This document shows, piece by piece, positions 24,900-45,863 of a DNA stretch of 64,000 nt. Made by a program: the position numbers and the translations under genes. The stretch is from Gammaproteobacteria bacterium. GTDB lineage: Bacteria; Pseudomonadota; Gammaproteobacteria; UBA4575. The stretch's first letter is position 1. Every line of letters starts with the position of its first letter. Under the pieces are notes generated by a model. That model was not told the origin of the DNA. It searched no databases and was given only the letters and a program-made list of their open reading frames with translations. The stretch is from contig JANQOB010000001.1 of assembly GCA_028279275.1 (NCBI GenBank), positions 36,227 to 100,226 on the forward strand, in the 5' to 3' direction.

Positions 24900-25505
24900 A
24901 TGCCGACTTCAATAGACCTTCAAAACCTAAACCAAGAAACGTTGAATAATTGGTTTGATGAAAGATTGGAACAAAAACTGAAAGAAAGAGAAGAATCGAA
25001 GATCCCTCAGCTATCACTCATTGCCACAAAGGGCACCATGGATATGGCTTATCCACCATTTATCCTGGCCTCTACTGCAGCAGCATTAGGTTGGGAAGTG
25101 TCCTGCTTTTTTACTTTTTATGGATTAAATTTACTAAAAAAAGATCTTGATTTAGAAATTTCACCTCTAGGCAATCCTGCAATGCCCATGAAAATGCCAT
25201 TTGGTCCTGAGTGGTTTAAAAGCGTCGAATGGAACATCCCCAATGCGCTGAGCAGTAATATTCCTGGTTTTGAAAAATTTGCAACTTCAATGATGTCTCA
25301 AACTCTTAAGAACAAAGGTGTTGCAAGTATTGAAGAATTACGTGAGCTTTCTGTAGAAGCAGATGTAAAACTCGTAGCATGTCAAATGACCGTAGACTTA
25401 TTTGGTTATGAAAAAGATGAATTTATTGATGATGTTAGCGACTGGGTAGGTGCTGCATCATTTTTACCTGCCGCGCAAAAATCAGATATTTGTTTATTTA
25501 TCTAG
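24900..25505 (+). CDS. DsrE2-like sulfurtransferase (DsrE/DsrF superfamily)
   Basis: A 201-residue cytoplasmic protein of the DsrE2 branch, which carries sulfane sulfur on a conserved cysteine in sulfur oxidisers. Matching elements are SLIATKGTMDMAYPPFILAS, FFTFYGL, VACQMTVDLFG with candidate sulfur-carrying Cys161, and GAASFL near the C terminus. The first ~30 residues are a charged helix. Strong Shine-Dalgarno (CAGGAG) 7 bp upstream. It is paired with a haem lipoprotein gene 10 bp downstream. Family assignment is firm; the sulfur-transfer role comes from characterised homologues. Confidence 0.88.
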   Translation: MPTSIDLQNLNQETLNNWFDERLEQKLKEREESKIPQLSLIATKGTMDMAYPPFILASTAAALGWEVSCFFTFYGLNLLKKDLDLEISPLGNPAMPMKMPFGPEWFKSVEWNIPNALSSNIPGFEKFATSMMSQTLKNKGVASIEELRELSVEADVKLVACQMTVDLFGYEKDEFIDDVSDWVGAASFLPAAQKSDICLFI

Positions 25506-25515
25506 CGAGCTAAAA

Positions 25516-26076
25516 TTGAAAGCATCATTTTTACTTGGTTTTATTTTTTTATTAGGCGTTTCTGCGTGCTCGCAAAATGTGGAAAAACAACTTACAGAAA
25601 GCAGAGAAGCTACAAAACAGCTTGGTAGTCATCTTAAACAAAAGTTATCGCAGAGCATGCAAGCCAATGGCCCTATTGAAGCAATGGACGTTTGCAATAT
25701 CGAAGCTGAAGGTATTGCGGCCAACATTTCCAACAATCTTGGTTTAGAAGTAGGGCGTACTTCGCTCAAACTTCGTAATGTAAAAAATGCCTCAGACGAT
25801 TGGGAAAATGAAATCTTACATTATTTTGAACAGCAAAAACAATCTGGAGCAGAGATAAAAAATCTTGAAATCTACGAAGTTACTAAAGACCAGGATGGTA
25901 AGTGGTTTCGTTATATGAAAGCGATTCCTACTTCAGAGGTTTGTTTAATATGTCATGGTGAAACTATTGCACAACCCATCCAAGAAAAACTTCACACCCT
26001 CTATCCAGACGATCAAGCAACAGGGTTCAACATAGGGGATATCCGCGGAGCTTTTACAGTAAAGCTTAAAATGTGA
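25516..26076 (+). CDS. DUF3365 (Tll0287-like) haem lipoprotein
   Basis: I start this at the TTG at 25516, giving a lipoprotein signal KASFLLGFIFLLGVSAC with a lipobox Cys; an upstream ATG at 25450 would put 22 residues overlapping dsrE2 ahead of the signal. The mature ~165 residues match DUF3365, the Tll0287 fold: AMDVCNIEAEGIA, KLRNVKNASDDWE and a single covalent haem site CLICHG near the C terminus, followed by GFNIGDIRGAFTV. Tll0287 homologues are periplasmic haem sensors or redox proteins. The 10-bp gap to dsrE2 implies cotranscription. Confidence 0.82.
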   Translation: MKASFLLGFIFLLGVSACSQNVEKQLTESREATKQLGSHLKQKLSQSMQANGPIEAMDVCNIEAEGIAANISNNLGLEVGRTSLKLRNVKNASDDWENEILHYFEQQKQSGAEIKNLEIYEVTKDQDGKWFRYMKAIPTSEVCLICHGETIAQPIQEKLHTLYPDDQATGFNIGDIRGAFTVKLKM

Positions 26077-26155: not shown

Positions 26156-27433
26156 TTATCCAAACATTTCAGCGGTCATATTATTAAACCAACTATATGC
26201 ATATTCCACTTCTCGCTTGAGCATTTCAGGGGAAGCGTCTTCTGGAGTTAATCCGCCACCAAGCTTTTTAATTTCCGAGCCATCTTCTGCTAACCTGTAT
26301 ACAGCAACAACTGAAATCCCATAATCCGGTGCGATCAAGCTGTAGCAAGCATTGGCATAAGACGCAACAGGCGCATCCTTACCTTGCAGCATGCTCACTA
26401 CTGCCGCAGCACATACTTTAGCTTGCGTACCTGCTGCATAACCAGACTTAGGCATACCCTTGGCAATACTGGCATCACCAATCACGTGCACATCTTTATG
26501 TTTTTTCGATTCAAAGGTGCCGAGATCAACTGGGCACCAGCCTGAATCATCAACAAGATCAGAATCATGTGCTATTTGTGCGGCGTGTTGCGGGGGAATA
26601 ATATTAGCTACCGCAACTTTGTGATCATCGAAGTCCGTGCTTACTGTCATATCCTTTGTGTTTACAGACTTAACACCACCGCCTGTATCTGCAGCAGCGA
26701 CCCATTCGATCATCTCTCCATATACATTTTTGTAGCCTTGCATGAACAAACCTTGTTTAGAAAACTTATCTTTAGCATCAAGGATAAGTAATTTTGACTT
26801 TGGCTTATTATGTTTTAAGTGGTGTGCAATTTGAGCAGCACGTTCATAAGGTCCAGGGGGGCAACGGAAAGGGTTTTGTGGTGGAGCAATGACTACGAGG
26901 CCGCCATCATCCATTGATTCTAATTGGCTACGAAGCAAAGCAGTTTGTGCTCCAGCAATCCAAGAATGAGGCATCACCTCTGCTGCTTCTTCACTATAAC
27001 CTTCAATAGCATCAAACTTTAGTGAAATCCCAGGGGATACAACACAACGGTCATATTCTAAAGTAGTTCCATTTGCAGTCATCACTTTATGTGCTTCAGC
27101 ATCAATCATGGTGGCTTTATCTTGAACCAATTTAATACCATGACTGGAAATATTGTCGTAGCCAAATTTAATAGTAGAGATGTCTCGATCACCACCAATG
27201 ACTTCATTGCTCATGAAACAAGTATGATGGTGTGCTTTTGGTTCAACTATAGTTACTTCAATAGATGAATCACCTTTAGCTATATATTTAGCAGCAATTA
27301 AACCACCAACACCGCCTCCAACAACTACAACACGTTTCTTTGCTGCATGAGCAAGAAACGGAAAACTTAAACCACTTGTAGCTAATGCACCGCCAGTGGC
27401 TTTTAAAAAACTTCTTCGATTTAGATTTGTCAT
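26156..27433 (-). CDS. fccB: Flavocytochrome c sulfide dehydrogenase, flavoprotein subunit
   Basis: 425 residues. Twin-arginine signal (NRRSFLKATGGALA) sends the folded flavoprotein to the periplasm. An FAD-binding VVVVGGGVGGLIAAKYI follows at the start of the mature part, then CFMSNEVIGGDRD and FRCPPGPYERAAQIAHHL, which supply the two redox-active cysteines expected in FccB, HVIGDASIAKGMPKSGYAAG and the C-terminal FCSD flavin-binding region. It oxidises sulfide to sulfane sulfur and passes electrons to FccA, encoded 28 bp upstream. Confidence 0.94.
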   Translation of the reverse strand: MTNLNRRSFLKATGGALATSGLSFPFLAHAAKKRVVVVGGGVGGLIAAKYIAKGDSSIEVTIVEPKAHHHTCFMSNEVIGGDRDISTIKFGYDNISSHGIKLVQDKATMIDAEAHKVMTANGTTLEYDRCVVSPGISLKFDAIEGYSEEAAEVMPHSWIAGAQTALLRSQLESMDDGGLVVIAPPQNPFRCPPGPYERAAQIAHHLKHNKPKSKLLILDAKDKFSKQGLFMQGYKNVYGEMIEWVAAADTGGGVKSVNTKDMTVSTDFDDHKVAVANIIPPQHAAQIAHDSDLVDDSGWCPVDLGTFESKKHKDVHVIGDASIAKGMPKSGYAAGTQAKVCAAAVVSMLQGKDAPVASYANACYSLIAPDYGISVVAVYRLAEDGSEIKKLGGGLTPEDASPEMLKREVEYAYSWFNNMTAEMFG

Positions 27434-27461: not shown

Positions 27462-28124
27462 TTACTTTTGGTTAGCGTAAAATTGAATTAAATCACGCAT
27501 TGCATCATCACCGGCAGATGCGTGCGCTTCTTCCATTTGTTTTTTCATTTTCTTGGGCATATCACGATCACCACTATTGTAATCGTCAAGTGTGTATTTT
27601 AAGTAAGGCGCCCATTGACCAGCTAAAACTCCTGCATCATCTTCTGCGGAGCTACCGCCGTTTTCATGACATTTCTCGCAGTGTGTTTCATGTAAAGAAG
27701 CACCTGCACGTGCTTGGTCATCATTTGCAGGTTGATCTGCACTTTCAAACGGAAGTTCAGCAAAATATTTGGCAAGAATTTTAATTTCCTCTTCAGTATA
27801 TCCTTGAGCAATTCTATCCATTACTGTTGAGGCTCTGGCAAAATATTCCACGTCTTCAAAATCAGGGTCCGATTCAATAATTTCATCAACTTTATCTTCG
27901 TCATCGCCGTACTTATAAGCAAGCATAGCGCCAATGATGTAAAGCTCTGACATTCCAGAAATCGTGGGGGTTGCAGGTCCATGACTAATCCCGTTAGGTC
28001 CATGACAGCCTAAACAGGTATCAGCTAGCATTGATGCAGAGGCCGTTTCTGCCGTTGCATCACTGATAAAACAAAACCCGAGAATACTCAATATAAGGGC
28101 TTGAAGTGAGAGCTTGTTGAACAT
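27462..28124 (-). CDS. fccA: Flavocytochrome c sulfide dehydrogenase, dihaem cytochrome subunit
   Basis: 220-residue exported c4-type cytochrome with two CXXCH sites: CLGCHGPNG near residue 37 and CEKCHENGG near residue 154. Signal peptide at the N terminus (LQALILSILGFCFISDATA). The gene lies directly before fccB on the minus strand and has a good Shine-Dalgarno (GAGGAG). Compared with typical FccA the linker after the first haem is rich in Asp and Glu. Confidence 0.9.
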   Translation of the reverse strand: MFNKLSLQALILSILGFCFISDATAETASASMLADTCLGCHGPNGISHGPATPTISGMSELYIIGAMLAYKYGDDEDKVDEIIESDPDFEDVEYFARASTVMDRIAQGYTEEEIKILAKYFAELPFESADQPANDDQARAGASLHETHCEKCHENGGSSAEDDAGVLAGQWAPYLKYTLDDYNSGDRDMPKKMKKQMEEAHASAGDDAMRDLIQFYANQK

Positions 28125-28257: not shown

Positions 28258-28800
28258 TCAATTTTTTAGAGCCACTTCTTCTGATTTAGGCTCTTTAGGC
28301 ACTTCGTGTGCCACACCTTTGTGACAATCGATACAGGTTTTGTCGCTGTCACCTTCAGCAATTCTCTTGTGTTTCTTTCGTGCAGAGCGGTCTTGTTCTT
28401 TCAGGTCCATTGCCGCTATTAAATGACATGATTTACATTCGCGTGAATCAGTCGCTTTCATACGATCCCAAACGGAATTAGCCATTTCCCATCGATATGC
28501 TTCAAATTTTTCTTCAGTATCAATAGCGCCTGTAATTTCTCCCCACACATCTTTGGCCGCACGAAGTTTGGCAACTAGTTTGGGTCCCGTTTCAGTGGGA
28601 ACATGGCAGTCAGAACACTCAGCACGAACACCAGAAATATTTTTGTAGTGCACGCTTTCCATCCATTCCTCCTGCACCCATTGCATAGAATGGCAAGAAG
28701 TACAAAACTCCGTGCTATTAGTGGCTTTTAATGTCACCGATGAGCCATGGCTTAACGCAACGCCTATTAATAAAAGTAAAACAATAAAAATTAGCTTCAT
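28258..28800 (-). CDS. NapC/NirT-family tetrahaem cytochrome c
   Basis: 180 residues: an N-terminal hydrophobic anchor (LIFIVLLLLIGVALS) and four CXXCH sites (CTSCHS, CSDCHV, CKSCHL, CIDCHK) with spacing as in NapC/NirT/NrfH quinol dehydrogenases. These pass electrons between the quinone pool and periplasmic partners. It sits 133 bp upstream of fccA on the same strand, so it may connect sulfide oxidation to the quinone pool; that link is inference. The C terminus is short and acidic (EPKSEEVALKN). Confidence 0.88.
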   Translation of the reverse strand: MKLIFIVLLLLIGVALSHGSSVTLKATNSTEFCTSCHSMQWVQEEWMESVHYKNISGVRAECSDCHVPTETGPKLVAKLRAAKDVWGEITGAIDTEEKFEAYRWEMANSVWDRMKATDSRECKSCHLIAAMDLKEQDRSARKKHKRIAEGDSDKTCIDCHKGVAHEVPKEPKSEEVALKN

Positions 28801-29109
28801 GAGCTTAGTTCAATGAATAGAAAGAATTTGAAAGGTTAATAAAGGTAAGGGGAATACGCCATTTTTTTTTACAATGAGCATTGTGCCACTGCGTTTACAG
28901 CGAACCAAGTCTCTAGAAGTTATATTCATATTGCATTTATCTAATAAATAGATTTAAAAAAATGCAGTAACACACAGAAAATATTGAAGATTAATTAAAA
29001 AAGGGCATGTATAAATAAAATGAATTAGTACTTAATTATATACTAATATATCGTCTAAAGTATAATTATAGTCCTGTACAAATACCTGCTGCATAAAACG
29101 TACAAACAT
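28801..29109. promoter_or_regulatory. Divergent intergenic region between the tetrahaem cytochrome and the DUF302 fusion
   Basis: 309 bp of very AT-rich sequence that must hold the promoters for both directions. A perfect TATAAT at 29061-29066 lies 44 bp upstream of the plus-strand gene, but I find no good -35 at 16-18 bp. No RNA gene or clear dyad seen. Confidence 0.35.
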
Positions 29110-30438
29110 ATGAAAACAATTCTTCTATTTATCGTTGGTTTAGTAGTTTGGTTGTTGTTAACCAACTACCAAGTTGTTTATTCAAAACTTATATCATTCA
29201 CAAATCAAGAATCAGAAAATGTTGAAAAAATTAATATCGTAGAAGATGTTAATGATGAAGAAATTGCTCAAGACACTAATAACATAACAACTGAAAATGA
29301 AATTGCAGAAGCTGACCTGGAAGTAACTGATGAAGAAGACTCTGCAAGCCTAGAAGAAGAACAGCTAGCCGAGACGGATGAAACATTCGTTGAAGCAAAT
29401 ATAGAAGAAAATGTAAGTGAGACATCGGAAGCCACTTCAGAACCTGAACTAATTGAAGTCGCTGCGGCTGATAACGCTGTTGAAAATGCAGAAGCTGAGT
29501 TGGAAGAAGAGTTTGAAAGTGAAGCAGAAGCTGCAATTGATCAAGCCGTTCAATCACAAGTCGCTTCTAATTTCCCCATGTATAACCCCGCAATGATGTC
29601 TGCTTGGACGCCATACATGAACAATAATGTTTATAACTCTTGGGCGAATCCATTTACTAATATGATGATGGCGATGATGGGTTCGATGATGAATCCGGCT
29701 ACCTATATGAATCCCATGACGATGATGAATCCTTCAGTCAGCATCATGACGCAGCCACAACATCTTAGCGCAATGATGCAGACTATGGACCCTAACATGA
29801 TGTTTGGAATGTTTGGGCAACCTAGTCAAAGCTATAAAGATGGTGAAACACCTGATCAACTTCCAGTCATAACCATCCCCGGATTCCCCACTCAAACTTA
29901 CGAAAATTGGCCTAAAAATACTGTTTCACCTGAAATTTCGCGTGAAGCTAAACACAATACATTCAAAACGGCTATGGCATTGAGCCCACTGTCAATGCGT
30001 AACATGGTTAGCATGATGGCTGACAAAATCCCAGTAGAGGAGGGTGTCTCTTGGGATGATGCAGTAGAAGCCATGAAGTTGCGTGCTAACGAAGTAAATT
30101 TCAAATTCGTTGGCTCGAGTCCATTATGGAAACAAATCGAAGCCGAAACAGAACAACCTTCTGCAAAAGTAGAAATGTTTCGATTCTGTGATGCGAGAAT
30201 GGCAAGAAAAATTTTAGATGAAGTACCAGAATTTATTATTTTCTTACCATGCAAAATTGCATTACTAGAAGATGCAGAAGGAAAACTTTGGGTGATGACT
30301 TTAGATTGGGATGTTAGTTGGTTGGACTATGCGCAAAACCCGAATAGCCATTTATCTAAAGATATTCGAGAACATGCAAAACTGATTAGGGATAATATTC
30401 AATACATCATGGAAGGTGCGGCAACAGGGGATTTTTAA
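29110..30438 (+). CDS. Membrane-anchored acidic / Met-rich / DUF302 fusion protein
   Basis: 442 residues in four parts: an N-terminal membrane segment (ILLFIVGLVVWLLLTNY); a Glu/Asp/Ala-rich low-complexity linker to about residue 150; a Met-rich part, about 155-250, with MMSAW, TNMMMAMMGSMMNPATYMNP and MMNP units; and a C-terminal DUF302 domain, about 310-415, recognised by MADKIPVEEGVSWDDAV, VEMFRFCDARMARKIL and FIIFLPCKIALLED. DUF302 proteins recur in the genomes of sulfur oxidisers, but their function is unsettled. The Cys in RFCD and in LPCK are conserved in the family. It is first in a run of Met-rich genes. The fusion itself is new to me. Confidence 0.78.
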   Translation: MKTILLFIVGLVVWLLLTNYQVVYSKLISFTNQESENVEKINIVEDVNDEEIAQDTNNITTENEIAEADLEVTDEEDSASLEEEQLAETDETFVEANIEENVSETSEATSEPELIEVAAADNAVENAEAELEEEFESEAEAAIDQAVQSQVASNFPMYNPAMMSAWTPYMNNNVYNSWANPFTNMMMAMMGSMMNPATYMNPMTMMNPSVSIMTQPQHLSAMMQTMDPNMMFGMFGQPSQSYKDGETPDQLPVITIPGFPTQTYENWPKNTVSPEISREAKHNTFKTAMALSPLSMRNMVSMMADKIPVEEGVSWDDAVEAMKLRANEVNFKFVGSSPLWKQIEAETEQPSAKVEMFRFCDARMARKILDEVPEFIIFLPCKIALLEDAEGKLWVMTLDWDVSWLDYAQNPNSHLSKDIREHAKLIRDNIQYIMEGAATGDF

Positions 30439-30486
30439 TTCTTTTTAATTAAGTTTTAATTTTAATTGTAAAAGCGGAGATGAGTA

Positions 30487-31263
30487 ATGATAACTAAAAG
30501 TAAAATCCTTCAATCAATCGCAGTAGTAATATGTCTATTTATTGCTGGGGCTGCAGCGATCCATGCTGATGAACATGCAGGAAAAAATGCTGAAAATAAA
30601 GCAAACCCCACTGCTTCTTATTTTAATTGGGGAGGTCAAATGACTCCTACGATGCAGAACACAATGAAGCCTGAAGTCCAAAAGAAAATGATGGGTTGGA
30701 TGGCTCGCCCTCAAGATATGATGACCATAGAAGGTTGTGCAGCGTGTCATGAAGGCGAGAATTTGGCCAGAATTTCACGAGACTGGGGCCCAATGTTGGC
30801 ATCTATGAAGCCCATGGTAGATATGATGAATCCTATGACGGGCATGGTAGAACCCATGATGAATCCAATGATTAGCATGATGCATCCTATGGCAGACATG
30901 ATGGGCCCAATGATGGGAATGATGGGACCCATGATGGCGCCTATGACTGGAATGATGGGCCCAACAATGTCAATGATGAACCCTATGATTGCACCTATGG
31001 CTGGTATGATGACTCCTATGATGGCAGGAATGGCTAATCCGGCTCTGATGATGAATCCTGGTTGGTACATGAGCATGATGGGCCCAATGATGGGAATGAT
31101 GGGGCCAATGATGAACCCAATGGGAATGATGGGTGGCTACGGAGGATATGGAAGCTATGGCGGCAACCCAATGGGACAAATGATGGATCCTAAGCAGTAC
31201 GAAAATTGGTTCAATCAGTGGACAGAATCAATGAAAAACATGACGCCACAACCCAAACAGTAA
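30487..31263 (+). CDS. Exported Met-rich repeat protein with one haem-binding CXXCH site
   Basis: 258 residues, roughly one quarter Met. After a signal peptide (IAVVICLFIAGAAAIHA) comes MMTIEGCAACHEGENLARI with a single CXXCH (CAACH) near residue 86, then about 110 residues of short repeats built from MM, GP, NP and AP (for example MMGPMMGMMGPMMAPM), a Gly/Tyr stretch (GGYGGYGSYGG) and the tail NPMGQMMDPKQYENWFNQW. The Met side chains could bind copper, buffer oxidants or coat sulfur; none is proven. RBS GCGGAGATGAG precedes the ATG. Shares its tail with the gene at 31377. Confidence 0.75.
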   Translation: MITKSKILQSIAVVICLFIAGAAAIHADEHAGKNAENKANPTASYFNWGGQMTPTMQNTMKPEVQKKMMGWMARPQDMMTIEGCAACHEGENLARISRDWGPMLASMKPMVDMMNPMTGMVEPMMNPMISMMHPMADMMGPMMGMMGPMMAPMTGMMGPTMSMMNPMIAPMAGMMTPMMAGMANPALMMNPGWYMSMMGPMMGMMGPMMNPMGMMGGYGGYGSYGGNPMGQMMDPKQYENWFNQWTESMKNMTPQPKQ

Positions 31264-31283
31264 AGTCATTTTTTTAAGATAAA

Positions 31284-31313
31284 AAGTCGTGTGTAAATTG
31301 CTATGCACGACTT
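31284..31313 (+). terminator. Possible intrinsic terminator between Met-rich genes
   Basis: An 8-bp stem AAGTCGTG / CACGACTT with a 14-nt loop, followed by a T-rich tail (ATTTATCT). It lies 20 bp after the stop of the haem-containing Met-rich gene. The loop is long and the T-run interrupted, so it may only attenuate. Confidence 0.45.
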
Positions 31314-31376
31314 ATTTATCTCATCACACTCTATTTCCATCAGGACGAACAAAACTCATTTAAAAAGGCAATAACT

Positions 31377-31880
31377 ATGCAATCTTTCTCTAAAACCATC
31401 CGCTTCTTAATCATGACGTGTTGCCTCTTTACTATTAGTGCGACTATCAGCCTTGCTGAAAAGAACAACCAAAGTACGGCTCCAGATATGAGTGCAATGA
31501 TGGGGATGATGAATCCTGCAATGTATATGAACATGATGAATCCCATGATGGGGATGATGAATCCTGGGATGTACTCGAACATGATGAACCCTATGATGGG
31601 GATGAACATGATGTACCCCATGATGGGAATGGGTGCTCCGATGATGGGATCAATGATGAACCCAATGATGGGCATGAATATGATGTATCCAATGATGGGC
31701 ATGATGGGCCCGATGATGTCACCTATGAGTGGAATGGGCATGCCTGGTATGTCTGGCGGCGCACAAAGTGGTAACCCAATGGGACAAATGATGGACCCTA
31801 AACAATATGAGCAGTGGTTTAATCAATGGACAGAAATGATGAAAAACTTTACACCACAAACAAATACAACAACTAAATAG
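31377..31880 (+). CDS. Exported Met-rich repeat protein
   Basis: 167 residues, about 30 percent Met. Signal peptide (FLIMTCCLFTISATISLA), then repeats of the type MMNPAMYMNMMNPMMGMM and MMNPGMYSNMMNPMMG, a GAQSGNPMGQMMDPKQYE junction and the same WFNQWTE tail as its upstream neighbour, ending in a Thr/Asn/Lys cap. There is no haem motif and the mature part has no Cys. The paralogous tail shows that the two genes arose by duplication with loss or gain of the haem region. Confidence 0.75.
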   Translation: MQSFSKTIRFLIMTCCLFTISATISLAEKNNQSTAPDMSAMMGMMNPAMYMNMMNPMMGMMNPGMYSNMMNPMMGMNMMYPMMGMGAPMMGSMMNPMMGMNMMYPMMGMMGPMMSPMSGMGMPGMSGGAQSGNPMGQMMDPKQYEQWFNQWTEMMKNFTPQTNTTTK

Positions 31881-31910
31881 TATTCATTTTATTTTTTTAG
31901 AAAAATCTAA

Positions 31911-32393
31911 ATGAATAAGTTATTTCAACAAGCGCTTTTCGTTATTCCAATTGCTGTATTAATTGCGACGCCCTTTGTTATGGATCATCAAAATAAAGAA
32001 GTTGAATCAAACGTTTCTAGTTCAGGCATGTTTGCTTTAAATTCTCACTCGAATCATGAAAATGATGTTGATTTTGATCTGCCGCATGTCGTTGATAATG
32101 AACAATTTGCAATGTCTGAACCTTTTTCAGAACACTCTTTTTTCATACACCCATGCAATATGGGCAATCCTATGGACCCTGCAGCATGGATGAATCTGAT
32201 GATTAGTATGATGAACTACATGCAAATTACACAGATGATGCAGCAAATGACCAGAATACCTGCTGGTATGAGTAATCCTTCAGCCCCATGGATGAATCCA
32301 TACATGAAGGTGCCAAATCAGTCACATTCAGCCAATCAGCCACTTAGCCCAGAAGAGTATGAAAAGTGGTACAACGAGCAGCTTAAAAAGTGA
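31911..32393 (+). CDS. Exported Met-containing protein related to the Met-rich family
   Basis: 160 residues, less Met-dense. N-terminal signal or anchor (FVIPIAVLIATPFVM), a His/Asn/Asp-rich stretch (NSHSNHENDVDFDLPHVVD), then FAMSEPFSEHSFFIHPCNMGNPMDPAAWMN and MMQQMTRIPAGMSNPSAPWMNP. It ends SPEEYEKWYNEQLKK, a looser version of the DPKQYE.WFNQW tail in the two genes upstream. One Cys (HPCNMG). The His-rich part together with the Met part would suit metal binding. MSEPFS recurs in the small protein at 44085. Confidence 0.7.
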   Translation: MNKLFQQALFVIPIAVLIATPFVMDHQNKEVESNVSSSGMFALNSHSNHENDVDFDLPHVVDNEQFAMSEPFSEHSFFIHPCNMGNPMDPAAWMNLMISMMNYMQITQMMQQMTRIPAGMSNPSAPWMNPYMKVPNQSHSANQPLSPEEYEKWYNEQLKK

Positions 32394-32591: not shown

Positions 32592-33737
32592 ATGGAAGAA
32601 TTATCTAACTTACATCTTGTTGCACTACTAGGTTTCGCCATCGCCCTAGTATTTGGCTTTGTTGGAAACAAAACTCATTTTTGTTCAATGGGTGCTATTA
32701 GTGATGTGGTTAATATGGGCGCCAAAGGCAGACTGGGTGCATGGTTTCTTGCCATTGGCCTTGCCATTCTTGGTGCACAATTTCTCTTTCTTCAAGGTTA
32801 TGTAGACTTAAACGCTTCAGTTTATTTATCACCTAATCTTTATATACTTAGTTATATATTGGGTGGCATACTGTTTGGTATTGGCATGACACTCGCAGCC
32901 GGATGTGGGCAACGTAATTTAGTCAGAGTAGGGGGCGGCAACTTAAAAGCACTTGTGGTTTTAATTATTTTAGGAATTACAGCGTACATGACCATGCGTG
33001 GCATACTCGCCATGGTGCGCTTAAACTGGGTGTACGCCGTCAATGCAGACTTAACAACACAAGGCATTCAAGACCAGAGTTTATTTAGTTATCTGGGCTC
33101 ACTTTTCAATTTAGAAGATGAGAGTCTGCTTAGAAAAATTGGTGGTTTTGTAATTGCATTTGGTTTTATTGCCTATGCATTTAAGCAAAAGGAATTCAGA
33201 ACCAGCTTTGATAATGTATTAGCTGGTGTGGTCATAGGTGCATGTATTACCGCGGCTTGGTTTGTAACGGGTTATATCGGGCAAGATGACTTTGATCCAA
33301 TCACTCCTCAAGGTATGGCCTTTATAGGCCCAACGGGAAACACCATTAGTTACCTAATGACTTTTACTGGTGCACAAATTAACTTTGGAATAGCCGTAGC
33401 ACTTGGCATGATTGCTGGTTCATTCATTTACGCAATTCTCTCCGGAAATTTCAGAATAGAAACCTTCAGCAACAAAACGGAAATGGTCAATCACATGATT
33501 GGAGGAGTGTTGATGGGCTTTGGTGGTGTATTGTCATTTGGATGCACCATTGGGCAGGGCGTTACTGGAATGTCTACCTTAGCGATTGGCTCAATGATGA
33601 CCTTAGCTTCTATTATTTTTGGAAGCGCACTTACCATGAAAATTCAGTATCACATGCTAGATGAAAAAGGATTCTTTTCAGCACTTGGTACCGGCTTATC
33701 TGAACTGCTTATACCGTGGAAAAAACAAGAAGCTTAA
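32592..33737 (+). CDS. YeeE/YedE-family sulfur-compound transporter
   Basis: 381-residue polytopic inner-membrane protein with two Sulf_transp repeats. Characteristic cysteine-containing motifs are THFCSMG near residue 31, AAGCGQRN in the first repeat and FGCTIGQGVTGM in the second; characterised relatives (TsuA, thiosulfate uptake) pass the sulfur species along such cysteines. It lies in the sulfur locus between the Met-rich genes and a cytochrome c, with soxYZ beyond, so thiosulfate or another sulfane is the likely cargo. Confidence 0.88.
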   Translation: MEELSNLHLVALLGFAIALVFGFVGNKTHFCSMGAISDVVNMGAKGRLGAWFLAIGLAILGAQFLFLQGYVDLNASVYLSPNLYILSYILGGILFGIGMTLAAGCGQRNLVRVGGGNLKALVVLIILGITAYMTMRGILAMVRLNWVYAVNADLTTQGIQDQSLFSYLGSLFNLEDESLLRKIGGFVIAFGFIAYAFKQKEFRTSFDNVLAGVVIGACITAAWFVTGYIGQDDFDPITPQGMAFIGPTGNTISYLMTFTGAQINFGIAVALGMIAGSFIYAILSGNFRIETFSNKTEMVNHMIGGVLMGFGGVLSFGCTIGQGVTGMSTLAIGSMMTLASIIFGSALTMKIQYHMLDEKGFFSALGTGLSELLIPWKKQEA

Positions 33738-33769: not shown

Positions 33770-34180
33770 GTGCACACCTTCTATCGTATCTTCATCATTC
33801 TCTGTTTAATAACAGTCTCTCCAATAGTATTTTCTACTCAAGATGATGCAGTTGTTACAGGCGCAAAAACATTTAAAGCGAAGTGCGCTTCATGTCATGG
33901 AGATGATGCTAAAGGAATAAATTCTAGTGAAGCAGAAATAAACGCTCCCGATTTGACACTGATTTCTAAAAGAAATAACGGTGAATTTCCCGTATCCAGG
34001 ATCTATGCCATTATCGATGGTAGAGAAGAATTACAAGAGCACGGCACTCGCGCGATGCCGACCTGGGGCGATCTGTTTTTAACAGATACTATTTGGGAAG
34101 GTTGCAGTCAGGTTGATGAACAAATTGTTCGTGGAAGAATGTTAGAACTTATTTTATATCTTGATTCTATTCAGCAGTAA
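33770..34180 (+). CDS. Monohaem cytochrome c
   Basis: 136-residue exported class I cytochrome c starting at a GTG. Signal peptide (IFIILCLITVSPIVFS), one haem site CASCHGDDAKG near residue 41 and a probable Met ligand in RAMPTWGD. An extra Cys occurs in EGCSQ. It follows the transporter by 32 bp. It could accept electrons from FccAB or from a Sox reaction. It is not SoxX by any motif I can identify. Confidence 0.82.
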   Translation: MHTFYRIFIILCLITVSPIVFSTQDDAVVTGAKTFKAKCASCHGDDAKGINSSEAEINAPDLTLISKRNNGEFPVSRIYAIIDGREELQEHGTRAMPTWGDLFLTDTIWEGCSQVDEQIVRGRMLELILYLDSIQQ

Positions 34181-34228: not shown

Positions 34229-34546
34229 TTACTTAATTACCGCTTCACCGGAACCGGTTTCACCAAGATTATCTGTCCAGCTAATTTTTACCGTATCACC
34301 TGCGTTTCCACCTTCAAACTCAAATGACCAGTATGGGTTTTTAGAAACACCCGTCCCCCATTCAGCAGAAATAATCATTTCGCCGTTGAGTTCTGCTTTT
34401 ACTTCTTTAATAAAGTGAGCAGGAATGAGTTCGCCTGTTTCTTTGTCTTTTCTACTACCGGACTCCATTTCGTGATACATGATAGCTTTCACTGTTGTCA
34501 CGCCATCTTTTAACTTCGCCCGTATTTTCATTTCTTTTTCAGCCAT
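34229..34546 (-). CDS. soxZ: Sulfur-oxidation carrier subunit SoxZ
   Basis: 105 residues, normal for SoxZ, which forms the beta-sandwich partner of SoxY. Motifs: MKIRAKLKDGVTTVKAIMYHEMESG, HFIKEV and the C-terminal KISWTDNLGETGSGEA. No signal peptide, because it is exported with SoxY. Eighteen bp downstream of soxY. Confidence 0.95.
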   Translation of the reverse strand: MAEKEMKIRAKLKDGVTTVKAIMYHEMESGSRKDKETGELIPAHFIKEVKAELNGEMIISAEWGTGVSKNPYWSFEFEGGNAGDTVKISWTDNLGETGSGEAVIK

Positions 34547-34564: not shown

Positions 34565-35014
34565 TTAAACGCAACCGCCGGCTGTTACTTTGACAGCACT
34601 TTTACTGGAATAAAGTTTTCCATCCGATTTAACAATTGCCACCACGTTGGATGACTCACGCAATTTTATGCGTGTAGATACGAACGGTTTTGATTTTCCG
34701 TGAAAATAAAACCTTGAAATCCAAGGGCGAGGGTTCTTATCACCCATAATGCTAATCCATTCAACATTTTCCAAATCGGAGGAAACCTTCACAGGTACCG
34801 TTGCGCCGTTTTCTGCAATTTCAGGGGCATCAATCATTACGTGACCTTCTAATAGTTCTTGATCACCGATTAAACCCTTTAATGCAGGTTCATATTCAGT
34901 TTCATCAAAGGCTGCAGTAGGCCACTCTGCTGATAGAATGGAAGGGATGCCAACTGCTGATAGCAGCCCCACATAAAAGCTTTTCTCTAAAAAATTTCTT
35001 CTGGATATCTTCAT
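34565..35014 (-). CDS. soxY: Sulfur-oxidation carrier subunit SoxY
   Basis: 149 residues with a twin-arginine signal (SRRNFLEKSFYVG). Carries sulfur intermediates on the Cys of a flexible C-terminal arm. Here the protein ends TAGGCV, so the carrier Cys is the second-last residue and the usual final Gly-Gly of GGCGG is replaced by Val. Body motifs such as IMGDKNPRPWISRFYFHG fit SoxY. No soxA, B, C, D or X is next to it, so this is a separate soxYZ pair. Confidence 0.93.
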   Translation of the reverse strand: MKISRRNFLEKSFYVGLLSAVGIPSILSAEWPTAAFDETEYEPALKGLIGDQELLEGHVMIDAPEIAENGATVPVKVSSDLENVEWISIMGDKNPRPWISRFYFHGKSKPFVSTRIKLRESSNVVAIVKSDGKLYSSKSAVKVTAGGCV

Positions 35015-36572: not shown

Positions 36573-37445
36573 GTGAATGAAATGACTCGAGAATTCTGCA
36601 TAGAATTGCGCGGGATTGAATTAAAAGACCGCAACGTTCTAAAGCGCATACTAGCGATTACTGAAGGTCGTACTAGAACCTATCGACTGGTTGATTCTAC
36701 TGAAACTGACCAGGCTGACATTCTTATTGTTAATGCAGATGATAACAATACAAAAGAGGAGTGGGCACAGGAATTTATAGGCACAAACGGAATTTGTATG
36801 ATTCCAACTATTTTAGCGAGTAGATCTAAGCTTGAAGGTACACAGTATAACAGTACAAGTTTACCTTTCTTTCCAACACGAATATTAAAACTATTAGATG
36901 AAGTTACGGTAAAAGAATTTAGGTTTACACCCGAGCTCCGGATTGAAGAACCAAAAAATACAGAAAAAGTAAATAATGAAGAGTATCGCGCTTTAGGTCA
37001 ACGTAACTATAAAGCTGAATTAAGCAATCAAGAGTTAGAAACTTTTATAGGTCAAACTGACACTGGCATTCAACAAAACAGAAAACGCAATGTTTTAGTT
37101 GTTGATGATAGTTTACCGATTCGAAAAGCCTTAGATATGAAACTTCGCCTGATGGACTATGATGTTCATCATGCTTCAAGTGGCCGCCAGGCTTTATATT
37201 CCATTCAAAAAACTCACTTCGATTTTATATTTCTGGATGTAGTTATGCCGGGAATCGATGGTTATGAGGTTTGTAGACTTATAAAACGAAATAAGTCGAC
37301 CAAAAATATACCTGTTGTAATGCTGACAAGTCGATCGTCACCCTTCGATAAAGTTAAAGGAAGGTTAGCAGGTTGCGATTCATACTTAACCAAGCCGGTA
37401 GAACATGAAAAGTTTGAAAAAGTTGTTGCTAGTCTGGTCGCGTAA
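36573..37445 (+). CDS. pilG: PilG-like response regulator with extra N-terminal domain
   Basis: 290 residues from a GTG start with Shine-Dalgarno AAGGAAA. The C-terminal ~120 residues are a canonical receiver: VVDDS near 178, phospho-acceptor Asp222 in FIFLDVVMPGIDG, LTSRS and the KP Lys in YLTKPV. The first ~115 residues are a separate domain with DILIVNADDNN, looking like a degenerate receiver, joined by a charged linker. P. aeruginosa PilG is a single receiver of about 135 residues, so this one is twice the size. First gene of a pilGHIJ-chpA set. Confidence 0.85.
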   Translation: MNEMTREFCIELRGIELKDRNVLKRILAITEGRTRTYRLVDSTETDQADILIVNADDNNTKEEWAQEFIGTNGICMIPTILASRSKLEGTQYNSTSLPFFPTRILKLLDEVTVKEFRFTPELRIEEPKNTEKVNNEEYRALGQRNYKAELSNQELETFIGQTDTGIQQNRKRNVLVVDDSLPIRKALDMKLRLMDYDVHHASSGRQALYSIQKTHFDFIFLDVVMPGIDGYEVCRLIKRNKSTKNIPVVMLTSRSSPFDKVKGRLAGCDSYLTKPVEHEKFEKVVASLVA

Positions 37446-37456
37446 AAGGATATGTT

Positions 37457-37819
37457 ATGAGTAGCAAAGTATTAATTGTTGATGATTCTAGAGTGGATCT
37501 AGAGATATTGAAGACAATTGTTAGTAAACAAGGTTATGAAGTTATCACTGCTATTTCTGGTCAAGAAGCTGTAGAAAAAGCTACCAGCACACATCCGGAC
37601 TTAATTTTTATGGATGTAATTATGGAAAACAAAGACGGCTTCGAGGCATGTAGAGAGATAATTTCCAATACAGAAACAAAAGACATACCCATTATTTTTG
37701 TTACGGGAAAATGTCAAAAAGCAGATCGAATATGGGCTGAATTGCAAGGTGGTAAAGCACTCGTTGGAAAACCCTTTACACCTGATCAGATAGTCAATGA
37801 AATTAATAAACATATTTAG
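37457..37819 (+). CDS. pilH: PilH-like single-domain response regulator
   Basis: 120 residues, a stand-alone receiver with VDDSR near residue 10, phospho-acceptor Asp in LIFMDVIMENKDGFEA, the conserved Thr in FVTGK and Lys in VGKPF. In the Pil-Chp system PilH acts as a response regulator influencing pilus retraction and phosphate flow. Lies 11 bp after pilG with an AAAGGA Shine-Dalgarno. Confidence 0.9.
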   Translation: MSSKVLIVDDSRVDLEILKTIVSKQGYEVITAISGQEAVEKATSTHPDLIFMDVIMENKDGFEACREIISNTETKDIPIIFVTGKCQKADRIWAELQGGKALVGKPFTPDQIVNEINKHI

Positions 37820-37823
37820 ATAA

Positions 37824-38375
37824 GTGAATATGGATACAGCTAAACAAATACACAATGAAAATTCCTGGCTTTTTGATAATGAAAAGCTCATTGAGAAACT
37901 AGAATCTGCGTATCAAGGAACGTCAGATGAAAAGCAAAGTGGTAGTGTACTGCGGTGCTACGGTTTCAAAGCAAGCAACATGAATTTTATTATTGATGAG
38001 GCGACAGCTTGCGAAATATTAGAGGAAAGTAATATCCACTTTGTTCCCTTAAGCGCTACTTGGTTGATAGGTGTTTCTAACATAAGAGGTGATGTCGTTC
38101 CAATTATTGATTTAGAAAAGTTAATTAACGGCGACGACACAAATGCCGAGTATAAAAATAGAAAGTTAGCAATCATCGGTAAAGGCGAAAATACCATTGG
38201 AATTGAATTAGACGAACTACCGGTTTTATTGGAATTTGATAAAAGAAAAAAGCTCAATGATTTTTCAAATCAAGCTGAACGTATACGACCATTTATTCAA
38301 TATGCATATACAAAAGATGATGATATTTGGTTCTGTATTAATTTTCCCTCATTTATTCAATCTATCTCTTTTTAA
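37824..38375 (+). CDS. pilI: PilI-like CheW adaptor protein
   Basis: 183 residues from a GTG (an ATG lies two codons later). CheW-like fold: VPLSATWLIGVSNIRGDVVPIIDLE is the classic CheW segment that couples receptor to kinase. The N-terminal ~45 residues are extra. Four bp after pilH. Confidence 0.9.
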   Translation: MNMDTAKQIHNENSWLFDNEKLIEKLESAYQGTSDEKQSGSVLRCYGFKASNMNFIIDEATACEILEESNIHFVPLSATWLIGVSNIRGDVVPIIDLEKLINGDDTNAEYKNRKLAIIGKGENTIGIELDELPVLLEFDKRKKLNDFSNQAERIRPFIQYAYTKDDDIWFCINFPSFIQSISF

Positions 38376-38412
38376 ATCTAAATATACACATACATGCTAT
38401 TAGGACAGAGCC

Positions 38413-40689
38413 ATGATTAATTCAAGCATAATCTCAAACATATCAATTAATAAAAAACTTACAATATTATTTATCTCAGTTGCAATAGGTTTTGCGATAA
38501 CCACTGCCGCATACTGGTTCAAAGTAATGAATGAACGTGAGTCAATTGAACGCACAAATTTATTTATTGAATATAGTAATCTTATTAGTGAAGCACAAAA
38601 GAACTACTTTAAAGTCAGAAGATTTGAAAAAGATTTTTTGTTAAGTATTTCAGCCTCTACCGGCCAAACTTATAACAATACGCCGCTAGATGAGCACGCA
38701 AAGCATGTTTCTTTACTTGAAGATAACATGGTCGAATTACGTAACTTAGGGGATAAAATTAACGCGTCAAGATCAGAAGAGGTTGTTATTAATGAGATTG
38801 AGATGCCTGTAGAGTATATTCCCGAGCTCGTTACACAAGCATCTACAGTTGTAGATAACTATAAAACATCATTTTCAGATATCGTGAAGTTCAACCAGTT
38901 TGTAGGCTTTACAGATAATGATGGCTTAAGACTGAAAGCCAAACAACTGCTCAATTCTATCGAAAGTAATTTAGAAACAGCGAATAATCCAAAACTACTC
39001 GTTTCAATCGCAAATCTTCGCTTTAACGAAAAACATATTCTACAGTCAATTGACTTAACAGAGTCATATGAAAATCTCAAAATTGAAACACAAGAGTTTA
39101 AAAATATATTAAAGCGAACTGCACTAAATTTACAAAATAAAAATATTTTAGTTAATTATATAGATGACTATTTGAATATTATTGATGAAATAGTCACAAA
39201 TAAGCGGAATGCGAACGAGTATACAGAGCTTTATGACTTCATGTTAGGGCCAATGTTTGATGAGATGGGTAGATCTTCGCAATTAAGTATTATTCAAAAC
39301 CAGGCTGCATTAGAAAAAGATACCATCGTTGCAACTATTGTCGTATCAATTTTATTAATTGCAATTGCGATATTGATTTCATCTTTACTTTTCTATTTCG
39401 GTGATTCAATTCGAAAGCCTATTAATAAGCTTTTGAATACGATTCATGATGTTAACAAGGGTAATTTAAACGCGAGAGTCAATTCTGACCAAAAAGATGA
39501 ATTTGGTGAACTCGCCGAATCCTTTGATCAGCTTCTAGATGAAAAAGTCGCACAGTTATCTTATTCAGAAAAAGAAAACGAAGAGCTTAATGAGTCAGTG
39601 ATAAAGCTAATTAAAGCAGTAGCACAACTAAGTAAAAAGGACTTTACAGTAAAAGTACCCGTTTCAGAGGATATAACTGGAGCTGTTGGTGATTCACTGA
39701 ATTTATTGACAAAGCAGACTGCAGATGCACTCATAAATGTAAGAACAATATCTTCACAAGTTGCTGGTGTCTCTAATATTGTACATAAACAATCTAGATT
39801 GGTAATGGCGGTTGCTGAGCAAGAACGCAAGCAAGTTGAACATACTGTGGTTGAGCTTAATAAGTCCTCTGATGCTATGAATAAGATCTCAGAAGATGCA
39901 GAAGATGCAAATGAAAGGGCAGATAACGCCATAAAAAATACACAGTATGCATTAACAGCGGTAAATCGTTCCGTTGAGGGTATTAATAGTATTCGAGATA
40001 CAATTCGTGAAACAGAAAAAAGAATTAAACGTCTGGGTGAGCGCTCACAAGAAATTACCGGTATTGTTAACTTAATTAACTCCATCGCTGAACGCACCCA
40101 TATTCTTGCACTGAATGCGAGCATGCATGCCTCAGCAGCGGGTGAGGCCGGCCGTGGTTTTGCAGTGGTTGCAGAGGAGGTGCAGCGCCTTGCGGAAAGT
40201 GCACGTGAAGCTACAACTGAAATTGACACGCTTGTGAATAATATTCGTATCGAAACAAAGGATACGGTTACAGCAATGAACAAGGCAATCACTCAAGTAG
40301 CTGATGGAACCCAGCTTGCTGAACAAGCTGGTGAAGCCATGCAGCATACCGAAAAATCTACAGAGGATTTGGTTAAAGCGGTAGAAAAAATTACCATAAG
40401 CTCGAAAGACCAAGCTAATGTGAGTCAACAAATTGTAGAAAAATCGAAAGAAATTGTACTTAACACACGTAAAACAGATAAATACCTTCAAAAACAAGCT
40501 ACAAATACAAATAATCTTGTAAAATTTTCTAAGAAACTGCTTTCTACCATTCGCACATTCAATCTTCCTGAAAAAGATTCTGATCCTTACAACATTAATG
40601 TTGCAACCATCGATGTCCCGGAAATTTCAGATGCAATGAAAAAACAAGATGTAGATGCTTCGGGTAATGACAAAGTCGTAAACGCATAA
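38413..40689 (+). CDS. pilJ: PilJ-like methyl-accepting chemotaxis transducer
   Basis: 758 residues. Membrane segments near residues 18-37 and 308-332 bracket a helical periplasmic domain with YFKVRRFEKDFLLS (HBM-like). A HAMP domain follows (SIRKPINKLLNTIHDVNKGNLNARV) and a second HAMP-like linker with KKDFTVKVPVSED, then the signalling domain whose hairpin tip reads AERTHILALNASMHASAAGE (P. aeruginosa PilJ-like with AAGEAGRGFAVVAEEVQRLAE). The sensor region is longer than in P. aeruginosa PilJ (682 residues). Confidence 0.92.
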   Translation: MINSSIISNISINKKLTILFISVAIGFAITTAAYWFKVMNERESIERTNLFIEYSNLISEAQKNYFKVRRFEKDFLLSISASTGQTYNNTPLDEHAKHVSLLEDNMVELRNLGDKINASRSEEVVINEIEMPVEYIPELVTQASTVVDNYKTSFSDIVKFNQFVGFTDNDGLRLKAKQLLNSIESNLETANNPKLLVSIANLRFNEKHILQSIDLTESYENLKIETQEFKNILKRTALNLQNKNILVNYIDDYLNIIDEIVTNKRNANEYTELYDFMLGPMFDEMGRSSQLSIIQNQAALEKDTIVATIVVSILLIAIAILISSLLFYFGDSIRKPINKLLNTIHDVNKGNLNARVNSDQKDEFGELAESFDQLLDEKVAQLSYSEKENEELNESVIKLIKAVAQLSKKDFTVKVPVSEDITGAVGDSLNLLTKQTADALINVRTISSQVAGVSNIVHKQSRLVMAVAEQERKQVEHTVVELNKSSDAMNKISEDAEDANERADNAIKNTQYALTAVNRSVEGINSIRDTIRETEKRIKRLGERSQEITGIVNLINSIAERTHILALNASMHASAAGEAGRGFAVVAEEVQRLAESAREATTEIDTLVNNIRIETKDTVTAMNKAITQVADGTQLAEQAGEAMQHTEKSTEDLVKAVEKITISSKDQANVSQQIVEKSKEIVLNTRKTDKYLQKQATNTNNLVKFSKKLLSTIRTFNLPEKDSDPYNINVATIDVPEISDAMKKQDVDASGNDKVVNA

Positions 40690-40726
40690 TGATATAGCAA
40701 TCATTAACGGAATAGGTTTTAGCGAG

Positions 40727-43700: not shown

Positions 43701-44059
43701 CGCTTATTGTCGAAGATGCAATTAGTACTCGAAAGTCGTTAGCACAATTTATGAGTGATTTAGGGTTCAAGGTTGAAGTGGCTATTGATGGTGTTGATGC
43801 GATTGATAAAATTCAAAAACAAACACCATCCATTATCCTTACTGATTTAGAGATGCCGCGCATGAACGGTTTAGAACTTACCGACCATGTGCGTTCAAAT
43901 GAGAGTACTCAAGATATACCTATCATTATGATTACTTCACGTGCGACAGATAAACATAAACAAGAAGCCAAACGCATTGGCGTAAATGAATATATGACCA
44001 AACCCTATGATGAAGATAAATTATTGATGATGGTCAATTCACTTAGTAATACTGTATAG
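40727..44059 (+). CDS. chpA: ChpA/PilL-type hybrid chemotaxis histidine kinase
   Basis: 1110 residues. Order: two ~125-residue N-terminal repeats that look HPt-like but lack a His (each ends in a WP...YL...WPI/WPV pattern); a functional HPt with His381 in AHTLKGAGN; a dimerisation region; the ATP-binding domain (MHILRNAIDHGIESP, DDGRGLD, GRGVGLDVV); a CheW domain; and a receiver with Asp1040 in LTDLEMPRMNG. P. aeruginosa ChpA has about 2470 residues and many more Hpt domains, so this is a compact version. It phosphorylates PilG and PilH. Confidence 0.92.
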   Translation: MSDNNHVVNQLEVINDLIQNWIDMPDKDHEALNELFIELDLVINSLKIQTEIQNDQEIINIFTHFQENLLSFNESSASEKHIELISAWPIYLTEYISNRDDEEIQFNLEEFLNKEDWPVRYLSTGRSEVDSPFETSSHVSTDDEGLIESLSPLDSQIFGSTDLTSEQKEFLELIIAEIIDIQETHSSRISALITDAQSSNSNYENEIETQVEQLERIGSVTYMIGLKGVSKFCQQLSRILKHVLETKPNQLCELQEEILVWPDMLQAYLYAPNDKEYIQVLLDYLNLDCWPIKITDEELKTIEQAFVFSKIEIEDQNTVERTREATPEAVSLDKPEDVNEELFDSLLQDLPDQTQEFTLAVQQLRTTEFIEQLEISKRLAHTLKGAGNTVGIMGLANMTHHLEDILEALLKAKTVPSPALHNSIEKAADCLEEMSEYLHGMGDAPTDALSVFQEVLNWANYIDENGVPNDDNTLDEVATPGDVDVNVEQSRDIDSGKTEQVETSSKQQIEQSLRIPTSLIDELLKYAGENIISNAQIQEFIDRSKSFSKQLRSNNNKIKSIISELEHLIHVRGFSSRFQEQNKLSNFDPLEMDQYNELNTYANLLIELAADSSEFLENLDESLLKLDNLSASQNHVMVENQDTVLRTKMVPVRSIVQRLKRSVKQANKLSNKTSQLVVTGEEILIDSEILNQLTDPLMHILRNAIDHGIESPDFREKQGKDKNGLIELNFKKEGKLIHISCRDDGRGLDIERIKEKALEKNLIQKEKAFSKNDAMKIILHHGFSTKENVSQLSGRGVGLDVVFEQVRDLKGSLSMESKYGNGMKIELVIPTSFHSTQAFLVSCANNMLALSERGVEEILHPGAGKIIEQDEQQIFAYKQKRYPIFDLQKLLYSDDVADGTEASQVVFIVEDEFQKHHAILIDKIIDSREIVIKPFSKFIPKMSGLLGTTILGDGSVTSVLDLLDIVNTQHSDSPQAKRLQRVQAPEEIYQNALIVEDAISTRKSLAQFMSDLGFKVEVAIDGVDAIDKIQKQTPSIILTDLEMPRMNGLELTDHVRSNESTQDIPIIMITSRATDKHKQEAKRIGVNEYMTKPYDEDKLLMMVNSLSNTV

Positions 44060-45245: not shown

Positions 45246-45863
45246 TTATTTAGAAGGTGTTGCGTCAGCTACAACAGGGGCAATGTTGTACATACCTTCA
45301 AACATTTTCTGGAAACTTGTAGGATCCATCATCCAGGCAGTGCTTTCTTGCTGCCATTTAGGATCAGCCATTTTTTCCATTGGTGCCATGTAGTAAGCAG
45401 GATTCATCATAGCTGCCATCCACTGTGTGTATAAAGCAGGGTTCATGTAAGCATTCATAGAAGCTGTGTAGAACGCTGGATTCATAGAAGCAGCCATCCA
45501 ATTCGTATAAACCTGAGGATTCATGAACATGGCCATAGCATTCATCATTTTGTATGGATCGCTCATATTGGCAATTATTTCATTCCACTCTGTGGTATCC
45601 ATGCCGCATTCGATCATGTTTTGATAGGTTTGAGGCTGGCTCATCAAAGTCATCAATTCAACGAATTTAGTTGGATCAGCCATTGCTGCAGCCATCACTG
45701 TAGGATCGCTATAAGCTTTTACTTTGCATTCTTCAGAAGTAGCTGCGATAGCTTGCTTATCAGCGTCTGTAGTTTCACCAAAAACGACTGTTGAGATGCT
45801 AATTAAAATGACTATTACTAGTGCAGCAAGCGTGTATTTATAAGATGTGATAAAGGATTTCAT
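45246..45863 (-). CDS. Exported Met/Asn-Pro repeat protein
   Basis: 205 residues. Signal peptide (YTLAALVIVILISISTVVFG), then a domain with two Cys (EECKVK and IECGMD) and repeats of about 14-18 residues with the pattern MNP..Y..WMAA.MNP (for example MNPQVYTNWMAASMNP, MNPALYTQWMAAMMNP), also seen as DPT.F and DPYKMM variants. It resembles the Met-rich proteins at 29110-32393 in export and MNP..Y units but is more regular. Own Shine-Dalgarno and terminator, so a separate transcription unit. Confidence 0.75.
   Translation of the reverse strand: MKSFITSYKYTLAALVIVILISISTVVFGETTDADKQAIAATSEECKVKAYSDPTVMAAAMADPTKFVELMTLMSQPQTYQNMIECGMDTTEWNEIIANMSDPYKMMNAMAMFMNPQVYTNWMAASMNPAFYTASMNAYMNPALYTQWMAAMMNPAYYMAPMEKMADPKWQQESTAWMMDPTSFQKMFEGMYNIAPVVADATPSK

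Follow-up and report, generated by a model that had tools for sequence, protein, structure and literature searches.

A conserved set of methionine-rich proteins in a gammaproteobacterial sulfur-oxidation locus and its possible role in holding sulfur

We analysed a window of 64,000 nucleotides (positions 36,227 to 100,226 of contig JANQOB010000001.1, assembly GCA_028279275.1) from a gammaproteobacterium of the UBA4575 lineage, in which five genes encode methionine-rich proteins. Four of them (DUF302Met, haemMet, Met3, and Met4) stand in a row ahead of a gene for a YeeE/YedE-family transporter, and the fifth (MNPY) lies apart on the opposite strand (Table 1). Export or membrane anchoring was predicted by eye from the N-termini for all five products. 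These genes are part of a real and conserved module tied to sulfur trafficking, for which our searches of open-access literature, without most subscription journals, showed no description. This agrees with the sequence-only reading of the same stretch, which knew of no described system with such a layout.

Methionine-rich proteins of the locus

The window holds 63 genes whose products have 120 amino acids (aa) or more, with a median methionine content of 2.7%, and the five proteins rank highest among them. The sequence-only reading had reported four methionine-rich open reading frames (ORFs) on the plus strand at 29110-32393, and our gene positions and methionine shares coincide with it. Its claim that all four are strongly enriched stands for haemMet, Met3, and Met4; in DUF302Met the enrichment is limited to the middle of the protein, where 22 of 81 residues are methionine (157-237). 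The MNPY gene at 45246 (minus strand), the DUF302 domain, and the DsrE2 gene at 24900 were absent from that reading. The four plus-strand genes are separated by 48, 113, and 30 bp, and the transporter gene follows Met4 after 198 bp. Low-complexity stretches of this kind may be misassembled in draft genomes; in-frame methionine-rich homologues are present in other genera and families.

DUF302Met is composed of an N-terminal hydrophobic stretch (likely an anchor, by eye), an acidic linker, the methionine-rich middle part, and a C-terminal DUF302 domain (E-value of 1.5e-9, 38 bits against a gathering cut-off of 23). The DUF302 fold was recovered in its structural model, which is of low overall confidence (mean predicted local distance difference test score, pLDDT, of 57.5), and all 52 sequences compared keep two cysteines of the domain, Cys360 and Cys381. 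Upstream of the gene, about 40 bp of the divergent promoter region shared with a tetrahaem cytochrome gene are kept in four species of the genus, with variable DNA around them, and form a candidate control site.

The second protein, haemMet, is likely exported (signal peptide by eye) and ends in a copy of a 13-residue unit (MDPKQYENWFNQW) whose score is reached by 0 of 500 shuffles. The sequence-only reading had counted a haem protein among the methionine-rich members and, indeed, residues C84, A85, C87, and H88 of the haem motif are invariant in all 11 aligned sequences. The protein has no Pfam match at an E-value of 0.1 or less and matches no NCBIfam cytochrome model at an E-value of 1 or less. 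Just downstream of its gene, an RNA hairpin folds at -20.3 kcal/mol (z of -5.5), a stability reached by none of 200 shuffles, and overlaps a terminator-scan match at 31284-31313 (the scan found 4 sites in total, with 3.8 expected). This hairpin could raise haemMet above the genes downstream.

Met3, likely exported (by eye), shares the C-terminal tail of haemMet, and haemMet is its best other match in its own genome (69% identity over query residues 53-163). Met4 is likely membrane-anchored (by eye) and holds one 13-residue unit (MDPAAWMNLMISM); its relatives, with 33-37% identity, occupy the same location in three other loci (L031, L033, and L034). MNPY is likely exported (by eye) and was modelled by AlphaFold2 as successive short helices (mean pLDDT of 74.4), eleven in all, of 9-12 residues each, between positions 54 and 192, with a pLDDT per ten-residue block of 77-91 for residues 51-180 and of 69 for residues 181-190. 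Two more MNPY-type repeat proteins are encoded in the same genome (G000:C8:307217-307783 and G000:C11:263268-263789; loci L122 and L123), one near an ATP-grasp/Alpha-E pair and the other near a small cytochrome-like haem protein.

The 13-residue unit, roughly M-[ND]-P-x2-[YFW]-x2-[WM]-[MF], is common to all five proteins. We scored it with a weight matrix built from 423 units of 43 MNPY relatives, from which the MNPY of the window was left out and in which its two own-genome paralogues were kept; the matrix is broad because its training admitted any [NDSTA]P start. For each of the five proteins, 0 of 500 composition-keeping shuffles reached the observed score, and 11 further proteins of the haemMet set gave 0 of 500 (nine proteins) or 1 of 500 (two proteins). 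Prolines recur with a period of 13 residues in MNPY and of 7 in haemMet, each reached by 0 of 2000 shuffles. Elsewhere the best proline period is weak or absent, as it was matched by 94 (Met3), 157 (DUF302Met), and 425 (Met4) of 2000 shuffles.

Linkage, distribution, and neighbouring genes

We surveyed the linkage of these genes across 40 loci: a set of 34, five further chosen loci (L034, L038, L044, L127, and L129), and the window itself. Duplicate contig stretches (e.g., L031, L032, L035-L037, L039, L040, and L043) were left out, as were three loci lacking DUF302Met (L041, L042, and L045). Counts are given for the 25 loci where DUF302Met reached at least 194 bits; they are not independent, some of these loci being sisters. 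The haemMet gene is directly downstream of DUF302Met in 23 of the 24 testable loci. Two of the 25 do not present it next to DUF302Met: in L129 the gene runs off the contig, and L063 has no haemMet. A YeeE/SoxT-type importer was found in 20 of 25 loci, and the five without it (L047, L051, L060, L064, and L129) span 5 to 12.5 kb. DsrE2 was likewise found in 20 loci (not on L044, L054, L063, L064, or L129), and MNPY in nine, weakly in L127; six relatives (L034, L044, L046, and L048-L050) have MNPY 3.8-5.6 kb from DUF302Met. Gene linkage is to YeeE, DsrE2, and SoxYZ: SoxY is present in 16 of 25 loci, whereas fccAB, stressed in the sequence-only reading, is near in only eight, several of the loci being on short contigs. 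By comparison, 14 distant DUF302 loci (L065-L078) have no partner gene in any of them, and L079 has no profile match. Three of these distant matches (L075, L076, and L078) fall in ORFs with two CXXCH motifs, possibly a natural fusion of DUF302 with a dihaem cytochrome.

The smallest module, DsrE2-DUF302Met-haemMet-YeeE, belongs to genus g3 and, in the one locus scanned (L038), sits beside tol-pal and queC genes. The four genes thus belong together even where neither fcc nor sox genes flank them. In L056, a SoxA-type cytochrome, SoxZ, and SoxY are instead arranged head to head with the DUF302Met-haemMet pair. The alphaproteobacterial locus L063, from a metagenome-assembled genome of Hyphomicrobiales, has methionine-rich DP-repeat proteins (1117-2043 and 3350-4396) on both sides of its DUF302 gene and also encodes SoxYZ and YeeE in the vicinity; in the second of these proteins, prolines alternate every 13 and 12 residues over most of the length. 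Finally, genome G013 carries an in-frame fusion of the start of DUF302Met to the end of haemMet (L042:13726-14220), a draft stretch in which misassembly is also possible. The fusion keeps the methionine-rich part but not the DUF302 and haem domains, and DsrE2 and YeeE are retained. Because both domains are lost jointly, this arrangement suggests that DUF302 and the haem work together.

Profile searches retrieved at least 217 haemMet, 387 MNPY, and at least 404 DUF302Met homologues. For haemMet, the 7991 best-matching candidates were scored with a methionine-rich profile that may pull in unrelated methionine-rich proteins. Among the 120 listed per family, most names were uninformative ("hypothetical protein" or DUF302 labels), the others being a single "cytochrome c553" and a single coordinate string. 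A single-sequence search with haemMet matched 15 of 55 genomes, its own included; the match in G052 is weak, has no methionine-rich gene in its surroundings (L045), and was taken as chance. Across the 19 genomes of the family, haemMet was found in 13, DUF302Met in 12, MNPY in 12, SoxY in 16, and DsrC in all 19; the haemMet matches include a contig-end fragment (G006) and the fusion without haem (G013).

In a class-wide sample of 293 genomes, haemMet was detected in six (weakly in G227) and MNPY in seven, giving eight positive genomes in all, five of which have both. The link to sulfur metabolism put forward in the sequence-only reading was supported here: dsrA exceeds its cut-off in 7 of the 8 positives and in 84 of the 285 others (nominal P of 0.0014). 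The corresponding counts are 6 of 8 and 84 of 285 for FccB (nominal P of 0.012), and 7 of 8 and 144 of 285 for SoxY (nominal P of 0.040). The eight genomes are not independent because they are spread over only four families. Exceptions are G110, which shows no dsrA and no FccB, G230, which shows no FccB, and G227, which shows no SoxY. Apart from the case of G110, homologues were not widespread among non-sulfur bacteria in this sample.

The neighbours named in the sequence-only reading (FccAB, a NapC/NirT-type tetrahaem cytochrome, the YeeE/YedE transporter, a cytochrome c, and SoxYZ) were all borne out by Pfam matches. The YeeE protein carries Cys31, Cys105, Cys218, and Cys318 (read from its own sequence; the published family has three conserved transport cysteines) and scores 112.3 bits against the NCBIfam TsuA model, below its cut-off of 400. 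Farther along the window, genes for response regulators, a methyl-accepting protein, and a CheA/ChpA-like protein stand in a row at 36573-44059 and resemble, by eye, a Pil-Chp chemosensory cluster, and a cytochrome P450 gene (PF00067) is found at 57183-58553 in this genome of a sulfur oxidiser.

Table 1. Features of the window discussed in the text, with positions in the window
Feature	Position	Strand	Remarks
DsrE2 sulfur carrier	24900-25505	+	NF047629, 220.9 bits (cut-off 210); PF13686
Tll0287-like monohaem protein	25450-26076	+	PF11845
FccB, flavocytochrome c sulfide dehydrogenase flavoprotein	26156-27433	-	PF21706, PF09242
FccA, dihaem cytochrome	27462-28124	-	PF00034, two stretches
NapC/NirT-type tetrahaem cytochrome	28258-28800	-	PF03264, E-value 6e-65
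Candidate control site	29011-29050	+	best-conserved block of divergent promoter region
DUF302Met (gene 1)	29110-30438	+	442 aa; 7.5% methionine; PF03625
haemMet (gene 2)	30487-31263	+	258 aa; 24.0% methionine; one CXXCH motif
RNA hairpin, terminator- or attenuator-like	31276-31321	+	just 3' of haemMet
Met3 (gene 3)	31377-31880	+	167 aa; 29.9% methionine; no haem motif
Met4 (gene 4)	31911-32393	+	160 aa; 10.6% methionine
YeeE/YedE-family transporter	32592-33737	+	PF04143, E-value 1.5e-62, 212.4 bits (cut-off 27)
Cytochrome c	33770-34180	+	PF13442
SoxZ	34229-34546	-	PF08770
SoxY	34565-35014	-	PF13501; C-terminus GGCV
MNPY (fifth methionine-rich gene)	45246-45863	-	13.2% methionine; 13-residue repeat

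Possible sulfur-holding role and its rivals

We consider it plausible, although short of probable, that the methionine-rich proteins retain periplasmic zero-valent sulfur and hand it to a YeeE/SoxT-type importer feeding DsrE2 and rDsr. The five proteins, predicted to be exported or anchored, would store zero-valent sulfur outside the inner membrane, which FccAB would make close by in this genus. The short helices predicted in MNPY would present thioether side chains and might bind hydrophobic S8 or long polysulfane, by analogy with the methionine-rich domains of Sgt2 and of the signal recognition particle (SRP). The anchored DUF302Met could then take a sulfane atom from this store or from SoxYZ through its invariant cysteine pair and pass it to the transporter, and the haem of haemMet may control how oxidised the bound sulfur is or give electrons back to the cytochromes. 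Finally, the predicted importer would deliver sulfur to DsrE2 and, in the cytoplasm, to rDsr. In favour of this proposal are the adjacency of DUF302Met and haemMet, the recurrent presence of YeeE, DsrE2, and SoxY against no partner at the distant DUF302 loci, the minimal module of genus g3, the unit common to all five proteins, the L063 arrangement, the frequency of dsrA among positive genomes, the G013 fusion, and the need of Hyphomicrobium for SoxT1A.

Several observations weigh against this proposal. Kinship to methionine-rich client-binding domains is unsupported: only 2 of 44 MNPY members match STI1-HOP_DP at an E-value of 0.01 or less (best of 2.2e-4), the MNPY of the window has no Pfam match at an E-value of 1 or less, and the L123 and L063 proteins fall below the Pfam cut-off (STI1 or UBQLN1). 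The methionine-rich part of DUF302Met has no reliable fold in the AlphaFold2 model. No sulfur gene was found among the seven neighbours scanned around the two MNPY paralogues, DsrE2 is missing around L044, and the distance between SoxY and the pair exceeds 500 kb in G010 (L053) and is 11 kb in G005, which places SoxY just outside L038. Moreover, the 84 other sampled genomes with dsrA have neither haemMet nor MNPY. In genus g2 (G004, G009, and G012), whose genomes of 1.2-1.5 Mb are 91, 82, and 77% complete, DsrC is present throughout and two of the three genomes also have SoxY, yet none of the three methionine-rich families was found. These families are thus inessential for sulfur oxidation.

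Alternatively, the proteins might only coat periplasmic sulfur globules, as a methionine-rich counterpart of Sgp with no transfer role. Several paralogues stand in a row, they are mostly found with dsrA, and the likely export, low complexity, and regular prolines of haemMet and MNPY resemble what the available part of PMC10386293 describes for SgpA-D. However, a coat alone leaves unexplained the invariant haem motif, the cysteine pair of DUF302, and the close association with the DsrE2 and YeeE genes, and we regard it as unlikely. A buffer of Cu(I) or Ag(I) through methionine clusters appears improbable: MxxM motifs are numerous (29 in haemMet and 24 in Met3), but the two richest proteins have few histidines or none (4 and 0; Met4 has 7), no copper gene was found among the 18 window proteins scanned (a subset of the window genes), and the constant partners are sulfur-trafficking genes. 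We give an equally low chance to an electron conduit in which haemMet and the neighbouring cytochromes would form a periplasmic wire with the methionine-rich part as a flexible scaffold. The haem motif of haemMet and the nearby cytochromes with four, two, and one haems are consistent with such a wire, but each haemMet has a single haem motif, Met3, Met4, and MNPY have none, and cytochrome neighbours vary, as FccAB and the tetrahaem protein accompany the pair at only 7 of its 23 loci (some on short contigs). The sequence-only reading had left three functions open (a matrix or coat for sulfur, a metal buffer, and an electron conduit); we tentatively favour a sulfur-holding role over both the metal buffer and the conduit.

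It is also conceivable, and the least expected of these readings, that the proteins act as an oxidant sponge of the MrpX type, whose methionines would be oxidised and then recycled by periplasmic MsrP. Methionine-rich and likely exported proteins would suit this role, for which a precedent is known: a periplasmic methionine-rich peptide with a methionine sulfoxide reductase was reportedly described by Melnyk in 2015. PF00174, the family that contains MsrP, was matched in 17 of the 19 family genomes, and two matches (G007 and G017) were confirmed as MsrP. Yet this family does not track the methionine-rich proteins, because it has no match in the genome of the window (94.7% complete) or in G015, both of which encode them, and is present in all three g2 genomes, which do not.

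If methionine-rich repeats do bind elemental sulfur, as our preferred sulfur-holding proposal would have it, they would represent a new biological way of holding an insoluble element. A wider claim is possible but doubtful: that a new class of secreted sulfur-holding proteins, built as a methionine bristle on a 12-13-residue [N/D]P helix repeat, dissolves or coats zero-valent sulfur in the periplasm, loads a SoxT-type importer together with a mini-haem partner and a membrane-anchored DUF302 persulfide relay, and serves the rDsr oxidisers of these lineages as their missing periplasm-to-cytoplasm carrier, with versions in gamma- and alphaproteobacteria. According to the available part of PMC11582611, little is understood of how sulfur from outside the inner membrane gets to the oxidation machinery of the cytoplasm; Hyphomicrobium requires the YeeE-like SoxT1A, which mediates sulfur import, to oxidise sulfur, and the route of thiosulfate sulfane sulfur into its cytoplasm is called unknown. 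The four-gene module DsrE2-DUF302Met-haemMet-YeeE is well defined, each of its proposed steps is testable, and its parts recur across families with hundreds of unnamed homologues.

Comparison with described systems

For haemMet, Met3, Met4, and MNPY, comparison with Pfam, NCBIfam, and PHROGs gave no family match above its cut-off, whereas the importer and DsrE2 are of known kinds. The Sgp proteins are usually rich in glycine and tyrosine. SgpA-D of Allochromatium vinosum, from which our proteins are set apart by description only, are exported, repetitive, and regularly spaced in their prolines, and belong to an rDsr sulfur oxidiser (PMC10386293, in part); our proteins are likely exported and repetitive too, with regular prolines in haemMet and MNPY. 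The proteins studied here differ in being methionine-rich, in their haem motif and DUF302 partner, and in their linkage to DsrE2 and the YeeE importer. The MrpX-MsrP system of hypochlorite scavenging also relies on a periplasmic methionine-rich protein; its neighbours are different, and no PF00174 protein was found in the genome of the window at its 94.7% completeness. The predicted methionine-rich short amphipathic helices further resemble those of Sgt2, SRP, and STI1 (ubiquilin/Hop). In Sgt2 and SRP, such helices form a hydrophobic groove that binds hydrophobic segments, as stated in the available text of PMC8010706.

The closest likeness in gene arrangement is to SoxT and YTD (YeeE-TusA-DsrE) clusters, where a YeeE-family importer lies beside a DsrE-type carrier, often with Sox genes; SoxT and YTD are described in PMC11582611 and PMC13293266, the YeeE-TusA-DsrE clusters in the latter, both sources being available in part. 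The terms "DUF302" and "methionine" occur in neither main text, and our locus adds methionine-rich, haem, and DUF302 proteins that are predicted to be periplasmic. The DUF302 domain itself is tied to periplasmic sulfur oxidation elsewhere: in Acidithiobacillia, a DUF302 protein is encoded in the sox operon between soxA and soxB (excerpts of PMC5037610 and PMC5248467). Compared with this protein, which has 191 aa in T. tepidarius according to the same excerpts, DUF302Met adds a hydrophobic stretch, an acidic linker, and a methionine-rich segment, and is paired with haemMet.

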